Shown here: piece by piece, positions 8,873 through 12,600 of the stretch
Position numbering within the stretch: position 1 is the first letter of the stretch
How the letters are laid out: each line of letters opens with the position of its first letter
Assembly: GCF_037971845.1 (NCBI RefSeq)
Contig: NZ_CP150227.1
Location: 6,510,001 to 6,574,000, forward strand
Direction: 5' to 3'
Length of the DNA stretch: 64,000 nt
Source of the DNA: Paenibacillus sp. FSL R5-0766
GTDB lineage: Bacteria; Bacillota; Bacilli; Paenibacillales; Paenibacillaceae
Made by a program: the position numbers and the translations under genes
The notes under the pieces: generated by a model
Told to the model about the DNA's origin: nothing
What the model saw: the letters and a program-made list of their open reading frames with translations, nothing else
The model's database searches: none

Positions 8873-9188
8873 CCCTCTTCCTCCATTCCAATGCTTGTTA
8901 ACCTTTACCCACAAAGGTTGAAGCCGTAAACAAGCCCTTCGCTAAGCACTCATCATGATTCCAAATAGGTTTCCCAATCAGGTATGCATCCTAATCCTCA
9001 TTCATTCGTAATAGCTATATAACCCTTTTATCTAACTAGCCAATTCCTTTTTTAACCAGATTTATGCATGAGAATGAGGGTTTCTCCGCACCTTAATGTC
9101 ATAAGACCGCAAATTTAGCTGGTGAGAACCCATTCAAGTCGAGTCAAAACGGTTATATCTATACCATATACGAATGGAGGGATTCCCT
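8873..9188. other. Intergenic, nothing recognised
   Basis: A 316-base gap between two divergent genes, with only a small hairpin AACCTTTACCCACAAAGGTT near 8911-8930. No clear promoter pair or operator was found. Confidence 0.3.
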
Positions 9189-9782
9189 ATGATTCCAGCA
9201 ACGTTGGAACAATTGGAGCAAGTTCGCAAGGAATGCCGTACCATGGTTCGCAAAAGAGCTACCGCATCTGCCGGTACAACACTCGTTCCGCTGCCCGGTA
9301 CAGACGTACTGGCTGATGTGGGGATGCTGATGCAGCTGTTGCCTGCCATTAACAATAAATTCGGATTATCACAAAAACAGCTGGACGGTATGGACCCCGA
9401 GACCAAATCCATGATCTATGGATTCGTCATGTCCATCGGAAGCAAAGTCATCGGTCGTATGATCACCAAGGAGTTGGTGGTACAGGTTCTGAAAAGAGTC
9501 GGCGTACGCGTAGCCACCAAATCGGTCGCCAAATTTGTTCCGTTTGCAGGACAGGGACTGGCTGCCGCACTCAGCTTCACAGCCATGCGCTATGTAGGTA
9601 ACAAACATGTCGATGACTGTTATGAAGTCGTCAAACGCATGATTGAGCAGCGCGAATTGATTCCGGGTGAACCCGCTCCGTCTGCGCTGGAGGAAGCTAA
9701 CAGCGACGACGTGAAAGTAGAAGCGAAGTCGATCTCTAGCAACGGGGCAGATGAACCTGCGAAGGAGTCTAAGGATCAATGA
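9189..9782 (+). CDS. Conserved hypothetical, DUF697-like helical protein
   Basis: A 197-residue protein started at the ATG 9 bases after GGAGGG. Residues ~28-45 read TTLVPLPGTDVLADVGM and residues ~100-130 read GVRVATKSVAKFVPFAGQGLAAALSFTAMRYVG. Paired PxPGxD and glycine-rich hydrophobic helices of this kind occur in DUF697/YcjF-like proteins and in C-termini of some membrane-linked GTPases; the GTPase itself is absent. It probably sits at the membrane. The last ~35 residues are charged and low-complexity. Function unknown. Confidence 0.6.
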   Translation: MIPATLEQLEQVRKECRTMVRKRATASAGTTLVPLPGTDVLADVGMLMQLLPAINNKFGLSQKQLDGMDPETKSMIYGFVMSIGSKVIGRMITKELVVQVLKRVGVRVATKSVAKFVPFAGQGLAAALSFTAMRYVGNKHVDDCYEVVKRMIEQRELIPGEPAPSALEEANSDDVKVEAKSISSNGADEPAKESKDQ

Positions 9783-9788
9783 ACGCAA

Positions 9789-9824
9789 AAGCTCCTGTGC
9801 GACTGAACGCACAGGAGCTTCTTC
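9789..9824 (+). terminator. Terminator after DUF697-like gene
   Basis: AAGCTCCTGTGCG pairs with CGCACAGGAGCTT around a 6-base loop; TCTTC follows. It also lies just downstream of the converging toxin gene. Confidence 0.8.
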
Positions 9825-9839
9825 ATCTCACAAGAACTG

Positions 9840-10358
9840 CTAACTATTATTTAAAGTAATGTGTATTTCCTTTTGGATATCTAAAGAACCATACCGTTTA
9901 TTTTCAAGGTAGCTTATTTGTATATCATGTACTTCTTTGCGCGGTACAAAATATGGTAACTTGCCTGATTTTATAAGTGCATTCATCTTTTTAACTTTTT
10001 TCATAATGACTTCACGTTCAGCCGAGTTCTTAATTTCAATATGTATTTGTTTTACTGTAAATGGATCACCAATAAATTCCTTTCTTACATAGAACATATT
10101 TTGAATCAACAGGTAATTGTCATACTGATTCATCTTAATAGGATGAACATTAGTAGGTTTTGAAATCATTAATTGCTTGTATTTATTATGTTTATCATCA
10201 TCCTTTGAAATAGGAATACAACATAAGGAATCAGGAAATTGTTCATCTTCAAGAACTAGTAACAGGCCTGGTCGTTGTTCATTAATTGAAATTTTGTACT
10301 CTCTCCAATCACAAATGGAGTGAAATTCTTGTTTTAGTTTATATACTTTAAATTCCAT
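9840..10358 (-). CDS. Candidate type III toxin, ToxN/AbiQ-like endoribonuclease
   Basis: A 172-residue basic protein, the usual length of ToxN and AbiQ (about 170). A short strand-rich N-terminus leads to NEQRPGLLLVLED (residues ~26-38) and then LCCIPISKDDDKHNKY (~45-60). The latter resembles the P-(L/I)-(T/S)-S-x-K-x-x-H-N catalytic segment of the PemK-like ToxN fold. Helices follow (KNSAEREVIMKKVKKMNALIKSGKL). The call rests mainly on context: directly upstream on the same strand are a terminator and three 46-bp tandem repeats, the toxI-terminator-toxN order of type III systems. GGGGGAG lies 5 bases before the ATG. The gene is AT-rich against its neighbours, which suggests transfer. Family membership (ToxN, TenpN or CptN) is open. 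Confidence 0.7.
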   Translation of the reverse strand: MEFKVYKLKQEFHSICDWREYKISINEQRPGLLLVLEDEQFPDSLCCIPISKDDDKHNKYKQLMISKPTNVHPIKMNQYDNYLLIQNMFYVRKEFIGDPFTVKQIHIEIKNSAEREVIMKKVKKMNALIKSGKLPYFVPRKEVHDIQISYLENKRYGSLDIQKEIHITLNNS

Positions 10359-10379
10359 GTGTACTCCCCCAAGTAATTG

Positions 10380-10407
10380 AAAAAGGAGCAGGAAAAATCC
10401 TGCTCCT
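10380..10407 (-). terminator. Terminator between antitoxin repeats and toxin gene
   Basis: On the minus strand AGGAGCAGGA-TTTT-TCCTGCTCCT is a perfect 10-bp stem followed by TTTTTCAA. In known type III loci this leaky terminator makes the antitoxin RNA abundant while letting limited read-through into the toxin gene. It lies 22 bases before the toxin start. Confidence 0.85.
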
Positions 10408-10410
10408 CCT

Positions 10411-10548
10411 ATTTACACATCCGTTATCTTTTAGTTGCATACGGATCAGCAACAACATTTACACATCCGTTATCTTTTAGTTGCATACGGATTAGCAACA
10501 ACATTTACACATCCGTTATCTTTTAGTTGCATACGGATTAGCAACAAC
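10411..10548 (-). ncRNA. Candidate type III antitoxin RNA: three 46-nt tandem repeats
   Basis: Three full direct repeats of exactly 46 bases (10411-10456, 10457-10502, 10503-10548), preceded on the transcribed minus strand by a short partial copy. The second and third units are identical; the first differs by one base. In each unit RNA, GUUGC (bases 4-8) pairs with GCAAC (19-23), while AUCCGU (11-16), which lies between those arms, pairs with ACGGAU (33-38). That interleaved order is an H-type pseudoknot with a 9-base A-rich loop, the fold of type III antitoxins. The one variable base (unit position 10) is in the first loop. Repeats of 46 are longer than the 36 of classical ToxI. Expected role: bind and neutralise the downstream toxin. 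Confidence 0.75.
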
Positions 10549-10559
10549 ATTACATATAT

Positions 10560-10588
10560 AGTTTAGCACCAAACGGTTAGAAATACAA
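10560..10588 (-). promoter_or_regulatory. Probable promoter of the toxin-antitoxin locus
   Basis: On the minus strand TTGTAT (10588-10583) and TAAACT (10565-10560) are 17 bases apart. Transcription would start roughly at the first repeat. The fit to sigma-A consensus is moderate. Confidence 0.5.
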
Positions 10589-10637
10589 TAAATCATTAGC
10601 ATTTTTTAGATTTTTTTGTATTATTCCTAATTCATAT

Positions 10638-10713
10638 AACTAGCATTCCACACAATGATTGTGGTCGAATTTCAAATTCTAACCTAACATCAAATGCATG
10701 TGAAATGCTAGTT
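10638..10713. repeat. Inverted repeat bordering the toxin-antitoxin island
   Basis: AACTAGCATTCCACA at 10638 and its near-complement (TGTGAAATGCTAGTT) ending at 10713 are separated by about 45 AT-rich bases. The repeat lies just past the ABC transporter stop codon (10720). It could act in termination for that operon or mark the edge of inserted DNA. Confidence 0.5.
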
Positions 10714-10719
10714 CGAAAC

Positions 10720-12600
10720 TTAGATCGCCTGCGGTTGTTGCTCCGCAAACTGACTATTGTACAGATCGGCGTAGAAGCCCTGACTTGCCATCAATTCATC
10801 ATGATTACCCTGTTCAATCACGTTACCATGATCCATAACCAGGATCAGATCGGCGCCGCGAATGGTAGACAAACGGTGTGCAATGACAAAGCTCGTGCGA
10901 TCCTTCATCAGATCATTCATTGCTTTCTGGATAAATACTTCGGTCCGTGTATCCACGCTACTCGTCGCTTCATCCAGAATGAGGATGGCGGGGTTCGCCA
11001 GAATCGCTCTTGCAATGGTCAGCAATTGTTTCTGCCCTTGAGAGATGTTCGACGCCTCTTCATTCAGCACCGTATCATAACCATCAGGCAGTGTACGGAT
11101 AAAGTGATCCGCATGTGCCGCAACGGCTGCCTTGATTACATCGTCTTCCGTAGAACCTTCTCGACCATAGGCGATGTTGTCCCGAATCGTTCCGTTGAAC
11201 AACCAGGTATCCTGAAGCACCATGCCGAACAGACTGCGCAACTTGCCACGCTCCATGTCCTTAATGTCGGCACCGTCAATCGTAATCCGACCATCCTGAA
11301 TTTCGTAGAAACGCATTAACAGGTTGATCAGGGTGGTTTTACCGGCTCCCGTTGGTCCAACAATGGCTACCGTCTGTCCCGGTTTTACATCAATATTCAT
11401 GTTATGAATGAGCAGTTCATTTTCTTTATATCCAAAATTAACACCTTGGAATGCAACCGCACCTTTAGGCTGCTGTAGTTGCACGGGTTGTTTGGACTCC
11501 GGAACTTCTTCCTCTTCATCCAGCAACTCGAATACCCGTTCTGCCGAAGCAATCGTTGATTGAATGATATTGGAGATATTTGCAATCTGGTTAATCGGTT
11601 GTGTGAATTGACGGGAATACTGTGTGAAGGCCAGAATATCCCCGATAGAGATCGATCCGCGTGTAACGAAAATCCCACCAACCACACAGATCAGCACATA
11701 ACCCAGGTTACCAACAAAACTCATGAGCGGCATAATAATACCGGAGATAAACTGGGCTTTCCAGCCAGATTCATACAGCTCTTCATTGACCTTCTCAAAT
11801 TGCTGTACGGATTGTTCTTCACGTCCAAATGCTTTGACGACCTTGTGTCCCGTGTACATCTCTTCGACATGACCATTCAGTTCCCCAAGGGATTTCTGTT
11901 GACCCGCAAAGTGTTTTTGCGAACGAGATGCGACCAGCATGACAACAACTACACTGAGTGGCAACGTCAAAATCGTGATCAAGGTCATCCATGGACTAAT
12001 CGTCAGCATCATGATAATTACGCCGACAATCGTGACGATAGATGTAATGAACTGTGCCAAACTTTGCTGAAGTGTATTACTGATATTGTCCACGTCATTC
12101 GTGGCACGGCTAAGTGTCTCCCCAGTTGTGCGGGAGTCAAAATATTTCAAAGGAAGACGTCCAACCTTCGCACTGATCTGCTCACGCATGTCATACACAA
12201 CACGTTGGGCCACACCGGCCATCAGGTATTGCTGAACATACATAAATGCAGCACTGAACAGATAGAGTCCGCCAAGCAGGTATAATACTTTCATCAATGC
12301 AGGAAAATCAATCCCGGCTCCCTGTACACCCTGAAGGATGGCAATGGCGCCTTTACTGAGAATATCCGTTCCTTCGGCCATAACTTTTGGACTAATGATG
12401 CTGAATACGGTACTCAAGATGGCTGCAACCAGCACACCTAACAGACGAGAACTATGGGGCTGGAGATAACGAATCAAGCGCCGCAGTGTGCCTTTGAAAT
12501 CCTTCGCTTTCTCCACTGGAGGCCGCATACCCATTCCGCCTCCAGGGTGACCCGGCCCACCAGGGGGACGAGCCGACTTGCGTTCTGTACGTTCACTCAT
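10720..12600 (-). CDS. ABC multidrug exporter half-transporter, canonical Walker B subunit
   Basis: A 626-residue fused permease and ATPase of the type I exporter fold. Residues 1-28 are a Pro/Gly-rich cytosolic tail, ~40-330 hold six membrane segments, and ~380-620 the ATPase. Walker A is GPTGAGKTT, the signature is NISQGQKQ (SQGQ instead of SGGQ), and Walker B is LILDEATSSVD with the catalytic Glu. It overlaps the preceding ABC gene by ATGA, so the two are co-translated and very likely form a heterodimer like BmrCD, LmrCD or YheHI. The pair would have one canonical and one degenerate ATP site. The substrate is probably a drug or lipid; the MarR gene at the head of the operon supports drug response. 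Confidence 0.92.
   Translation of the reverse strand: MSERTERKSARPPGGPGHPGGGMGMRPPVEKAKDFKGTLRRLIRYLQPHSSRLLGVLVAAILSTVFSIISPKVMAEGTDILSKGAIAILQGVQGAGIDFPALMKVLYLLGGLYLFSAAFMYVQQYLMAGVAQRVVYDMREQISAKVGRLPLKYFDSRTTGETLSRATNDVDNISNTLQQSLAQFITSIVTIVGVIIMMLTISPWMTLITILTLPLSVVVVMLVASRSQKHFAGQQKSLGELNGHVEEMYTGHKVVKAFGREEQSVQQFEKVNEELYESGWKAQFISGIIMPLMSFVGNLGYVLICVVGGIFVTRGSISIGDILAFTQYSRQFTQPINQIANISNIIQSTIASAERVFELLDEEEEVPESKQPVQLQQPKGAVAFQGVNFGYKENELLIHNMNIDVKPGQTVAIVGPTGAGKTTLINLLMRFYEIQDGRITIDGADIKDMERGKLRSLFGMVLQDTWLFNGTIRDNIAYGREGSTEDDVIKAAVAAHADHFIRTLPDGYDTVLNEEASNISQGQKQLLTIARAILANPAILILDEATSSVDTRTEVFIQKAMNDLMKDRTSFVIAHRLSTIRGADLILVMDHGNVIEQGNHDELMASQGFYADLYNSQFAEQQPQAI

Follow-up and report, generated by a model that had tools for sequence, protein, structure and literature searches.

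The 64,000-nucleotide (nt) stretch of the Paenibacillus sp. FSL R5-0766 genome analysed here (contig NZ_CP150227.1, positions 6,510,001 to 6,574,000; hereafter the window) carries what we judge, at a probability of about 0.93, to be a type III toxin-antitoxin locus on the chromosome, acquired horizontally and belonging to the CptIN family as a divergent member. On the minus strand, from position 10590 to 9840, it comprises in order three 46-nt repeats, a terminator hairpin, a ribosome site, and a gene of 172 codons. Assignment to type III is supported by sequence homology of the toxin, its modelled fold, and homology of the repeat RNA, in agreement with an earlier note that had proposed such a system from the letters alone. 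Layout, RNA homology, some covariation, toxin homology, and a predicted fold are established here. The locus is a distant CptIN branch and not a new kind of system, a conclusion that is well supported and unsurprising.

The toxin gene (9840..10358, minus strand) encodes a 172-residue CptN-like protein, predicted to be an endoribonuclease of the MazF/Kid (PemK) fold. The ribosome-binding site GGGGGAG (10364..10370, minus strand, by direct reading of the letters) lies five bases 5' of the ATG, and both gene and strong ribosome site stand as the earlier note had described them. The only significant sequence matches of the protein were NF047359 (CptN; E 1.7e-10) and the structure 4RMO (CptNEr; 1.1e-10), and no match to ToxN or AbiQ was found by sequence. 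CptN was also the best structural match by a clear margin, with 18% identity to 4RMO over the structural alignment; identity to five recognised CptN proteins was 15-24%. According to PMC5086642, a type III toxin is structurally homologous to ToxN, and the predicted fold has that homology. In addition, the toxin groups with CptN by sequence and is accompanied by a repeat RNA of ~45 nt homologous to CptI. The earlier note had made its proposal depend in part on a fold related to PemK or ToxN, and the predicted PemK-type fold leaves that proposal standing.

The antitoxin region is a tandem array (10411-10551; 46-nt period, 3.1 copies, 98% match in a tandem-repeat scan) whose CptI-type units lie on the minus strand at 10503..10548, 10457..10502, and 10411..10456. 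Units 1 and 2 have the same letters, and unit 3 is one base off, an A/G difference in loop L1 that is the sole variation among the copies. The interleaved arms GUUGC/GCAAC (S1) and AUCCGU/ACGGAU (S2), previously read as an H-type pseudoknot, are both present, and the pseudoknot score of the repeat was equalled by 0 of 2000 single-base shuffles. Repeats were compared among loci whose toxins exceed the NCBIfam cut-off (L005 and L006-L009) and the window's own clade. L005 (toxin 186.5 bits) has one repeat unit, and the recognised CptN loci L006-L009 have repeats of 44-46 nt, mostly of the same architecture as those in the window. Clade arrays comprise three 45-nt units in Tumebacillus avium (L002), four in Mesobacillus boroniphilus (L003), and two each on a Parageobacillus thermoglucosidasius plasmid (L018) and in L054. 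A pseudoknot script folded 11 of 13 repeat units as S1 (5-6 bp)-L1 (2-3 nt)-S2 (5-7 bp)-S1'-L2 (7-10 nt, A-rich)-S2', a count that is not independent evidence because the script itself seeks pairing; within its limits, no pseudoknot was obtained for the L008 unit, and the L010 unit gave one of another shape. Since a 46-base repeat is the norm of the CptIN family, the E. rectale CptI unit itself having 45 nt (PMC4627078), the earlier suggestion of an unlisted subfamily, drawn from repeat length, is not supported.

Homology of the repeats to CptI was tested independently with an RNA model, R1, for which five repeats were taken from L005, L006, L007, and L009; S1 is the only helix in it, and the clade was left out. 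Its top three matches in the window are the three repeats (29.8 bits and E 1.1e-4 for units 1 and 2; 26.3 bits and E 7.1e-4 for unit 3), followed by a match at E 2.1. Across 12 further loci, R1 listed the repeats of L055, L020, L018, L002, and L054 and three of the four L003 repeats (15.1-15.7 bits, the fourth unlisted), the weakest at E 0.4, and listed nothing in L008, L010, L012, or L019. In a gapless alignment of nine clade repeats, 98% of cells pair, compared with 27-36% when the partner is slid, and double changes that keep pairing occur at 2 of 11 pairs (4 cells), one in each of S1 and S2 and both from U-A to C-G. The case for covariation is further helped by the recognised loci, whose stems occupy the same places with quite unlike letters. 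Rfam yielded no gathering-score match for window positions 9800-10800 and no match at E <= 0.1 for L006, L007, and L009.

Several observations weigh against the CptIN assignment. The toxin scores 41 bits against NF047359, for which the curated cut-off is 90, and is therefore a relative of that equivalog model and not a member. Its Pfam matches were all insignificant, PADLOC gave no match, and the second Ser of the CptNEr active-site triad is Lys in the clade. Plain RNA folding of the repeats, by a method blind to pseudoknots, prefers a nested structure. Across the whole 7-Mb genome of the strain, R1 gave no match at E <= 0.001, as expected from a search space, and hence an E-value, about 100 times larger. 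Two phage coding stretches (L016 and L017) reached 14.5 bits (E 0.56), near three of the four true repeats of L003, so that R1 alone cannot tell them apart. Covariation within the clade is thin, suggestive rather than strong, because the double changes are few, come from the Parageobacillus repeats alone, and are matched in number by 156 of 500 shuffles; the covariation score is reached by 34 of 500. Finally, scans of 90 and 160 nt revealed no strong promoter for the repeats in the window.

The active-site triad of CptIN toxins is Ser-[Ser/Thr]-Arg, in CptNEr S51-S52-R53 (numbering derived from our alignment, in agreement with residues named in PMC4627078). The window toxin keeps S51 and has Lys at S52; R53 corresponds to Asp when aligned without gaps or to K56 when a three-residue insertion is allowed, and CptNEr Tyr104 aligns with Phe100. 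The loop I-[S/T]-K-D is present in 19 of 19 clade proteins (alignment A1), with K52 and D53 invariant, as expected under selection. In the best 120 of 2278 recognised-CptN profile matches, which were aligned with the clade and lean to one subgroup, Ser-Ser occupies the same place in 117; at the next position, Gln (85) prevails over Arg (18), Lys (16), and His (1). The relationship was also examined in a tree of 34 proteins, which is unrooted and has long branches. One side holds 19 rows, namely 17 of the 19 clade proteins (two under 140 residues were excluded) plus L018 and L003, and the other holds 14 recognised CptN proteins (13 picked from among those 120 matches, along with L007) as well as L010; the branch between them has support 100/98 and length 3.5. 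Named hosts of the clade proteins are Paenibacillus hunanensis, T. avium, Pelotomaculum schinkii, M. boroniphilus, and P. thermoglucosidasius plasmids.

These differences raise the question of a fourth, separate type III family, sharing layout and fold but with a toxin active site and assembly too distinct for the CptIN name. Such a family would fit the 15-24% identity, the long and well-supported branch, the exchange of Ser-Ser for I[ST]KD, and the scores of 40.9-49.1 bits, below the 90-bit cut-off, of all six clade proteins scanned (P0001, P0009, P0014, P0017, L018, and L003). We nevertheless regard it as improbable: the repeats are recognisable as CptI by both sequence and pseudoknot, CptN is the only significant sequence match as well as the best structural one, published CptN members are only 35-44% identical to each other (PMC4627078), and the triad Arg is not general among the recognised members either (18 of the best 120). 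Slightly easier to entertain, though still doubtful, is that the clade forms a separate type III toxin branch that kept the CptI pseudoknot while rebuilding its catalytic loop (S/T-K-D-D-D-K in place of Ser-Ser), which may entail a change in cleavage chemistry or specificity and perhaps a ring of another form.

Alternatively, the toxin could be inactive and the locus a CptIN remnant that has decayed or been repurposed, as absence of the second triad Ser from the clade and lack of a strong promoter would allow. This is very unlikely given a full-length open reading frame, a good ribosome site, three intact repeats, and a terminator, together with invariance of K52 and D53 in 19 proteins and a P0001 cluster of five member sequences. 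It is barely credible that the repeats represent a satellite or regulatory leader unrelated to the gene and beside it by chance. With one variable base in three copies, selection on pairing cannot be shown from the window alone, but the same architecture stands upstream of the toxin in three other genera, in L054, and in recognised CptN loci, double changes keep the pairs, and R1 finds the window repeats despite having been built without the clade. A divergent CptIN locus remains the preferred reading.

In type II systems, the antitoxin is a protein. This separates the locus from MazF/Kid (PemK) modules, since here the repeats and terminator occupy the space upstream of the toxin. Among type III systems, the E. 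rectale CptINEr (PDB 4RMO, NF047359) differs in its S-S-R active-site loop, where the present clade has S/T-K-D, in having about two repeats instead of three, and in a toxin to which ours is 18% identical and below the NCBIfam cut-off. ToxIN and AbiQ (2XD0, 4ATO, 7D8O, and 4GLK) have repeats of 34-36 nt (PMC5086642), compared with 46 nt here. TenpIN is alike in layout and has 50-nt repeats (PMC12373285); a TenpIN identity is less likely given the CptN match, in a comparison that included no TenpN sequence directly. In the open-access literature, we found no paper joining type III toxin-antitoxin systems with Tumebacillus.

Between repeats and toxin gene lies an intrinsic terminator hairpin (10381..10410, minus strand; 10-bp core at 10384-10407, 4-nt loop, U tract). 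It folds at -21.2 kcal/mol (z -6.3, with 0 of 200 shuffles as good), consistent with the hairpin of the earlier note, and was absent from the list of a simple consensus terminator scan. The promoter-like pair that the note had placed within 9840..10590 did not hold up: the best pair up to 90 nt from the repeats scored 7/12, equalled by 298 of 300 shuffles. A 160-nt scan yielded TTCACA-17-TAGAAT (10676..10704, minus strand), outside those coordinates and 127 nt upstream of the repeats, with a score of 10/12 reached by 26 of 300 shuffles. Its position is plausible and its score weak, and we treat it as a candidate only. The same scan at nine loci found a pair of at least 10/12 in eight, L055 being the exception; in L018, L054, L007, and L009 at most 2 of 300 shuffles scored as high, and the pair lies 110 nt upstream of the repeats in L018 and 95 nt upstream in L054. 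A 15-nt inverted repeat in the leader (10638-10652/10699-10713; 93%, 46 nt between arms) was considered as a mobile-element end, an idea left unsupported because the 157-nt leader is single-copy in the genome of the strain.

Several lines of evidence bear on transfer. At 28.9% GC, the toxin gene lies below the window average of 47.3%, and none of the 519-nt stretches taken every 20 nt is lower, which confirms the AT-richness seen earlier. The locus is flanked by an ATP-binding cassette (ABC) transporter pair and by a convergent gene (9174-9782, plus strand; no Pfam match at 1e-4), with a further terminator hairpin (9779..9823; -27.2 kcal/mol, z -7.3) between the latter and the toxin gene. The ABC gene was matched in 74 further Paenibacillus genomes, of which the best 29 loci were compared with the window. 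The second flank also lay within the stretch in 27 of these (exceptions L022 and L050), at about 0.1 to 0.7 kb from the first, and BLASTN matched the toxin-repeat stretch in none of the 29. Of 394 genomes in the family, two were picked up by a clade profile, the strain's own and, as a weak match, G008, a recognised CptIN; the profile missed G254, a recognised CptIN of the family, which a mixed profile recovered. Order-wide, the repeat pattern was found in 1 of 296 genomes, the strain's own. Class-wide, 6 genomes of 398 matched the mixed profile (G000, G1069, G1143 [locus L054], G254, and two weak matches with internal stops), of which the G1069 toxin reads as the Tumebacillus toxin, G1143 falls in the clade by eye, and G254 is of the recognised type. 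Relatives of the locus sit on plasmids. From its rarity, patchiness, and low GC, the locus was very likely acquired, as the earlier note had supposed.

In other Paenibacillus genomes (L023, L026, L027, L030, L035, L040, L041, and L043), a non-coding element recurs in the gap between the ABC and convergent genes; it carries inverted CTAACGAA.../...TTCGTTAG motifs (14 of 29 stretches viewed, by eye) and looks like a dispersed repeat. In L022, from the nearest genome by ABC gene (99%), the slot appears by eye to carry an IS110-type transposase gene.

Among three P. thermoglucosidasius plasmid records, repeat state and toxin state go together: L018 is intact (complete toxin, two repeats); L020 has a single repeat and a toxin match to residues 27-132 only, its gene unannotated; and L019 has a shortened toxin without repeats and an adjoining IS256 transposase gene. 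A fourth Parageobacillus record gave the same search figures as L019. The three read as a decay series of one locus, in related records too few for a test. The deep CptN relative L010 (1483-1983) scores 63.8 bits; it has about three degenerate repeats of 44 nt, and its active-site loop, IPMGDFS, also departs from Ser-Ser. L012 (36-nt repeats, a match at E 7.9e-4, a frame open on both strands) was excluded from the CptI comparison; at about 1244-1394 it has a 36-nt tandem array of 4.2 copies with a gene adjoining on the other strand, which by its motif looks like a ToxIN locus. Phage records gave no tblastn match, and a protein pattern on viral contigs gave 101 stretches, none confirmed. A 21-nt repeat pattern occurred in two viral contigs only (L016, 4227-4247; L017, 7258-7278), where a stretch matching S1-L1-S2-S1' lies inside an apparent phage coding gene; both are probably chance, because the S2 partner arm is missing. 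Phage pseudo-antitoxins have been described for ToxIN (PMC5086642).

By analogy with E. rectale CptIN, transcription would start upstream of the repeats and mostly end at the terminator, leaving repeat RNA in excess, with a minority of transcripts reading through into the toxin gene. The toxin would cleave the precursor between repeats, within the A-rich linker UAAAU, and each 46-nt unit, with S1, S2, and a 9-nt A-rich L2, would fold into an H-type pseudoknot that the toxin holds, protein and RNA together closing into an inactive ring. If the supply of antitoxin were lost, the toxin would be released and may then cleave RNA and stop growth. According to PMC4627078, CptINEr stabilised a plasmid and conferred no resistance to over 200 coliphages in E. 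coli; the earlier note's attribution of abortive phage infection to all the systems it listed was therefore too broad. By the same analogy, the present locus may serve at least in addiction or stabilisation, and phage defence is possible, if unproven for CptIN. The combination of a conserved antitoxin RNA with a very diverged toxin makes a good natural test of co-evolution between an enzyme and its RNA inhibitor, as well as of which residues in the active site a type III toxin requires.
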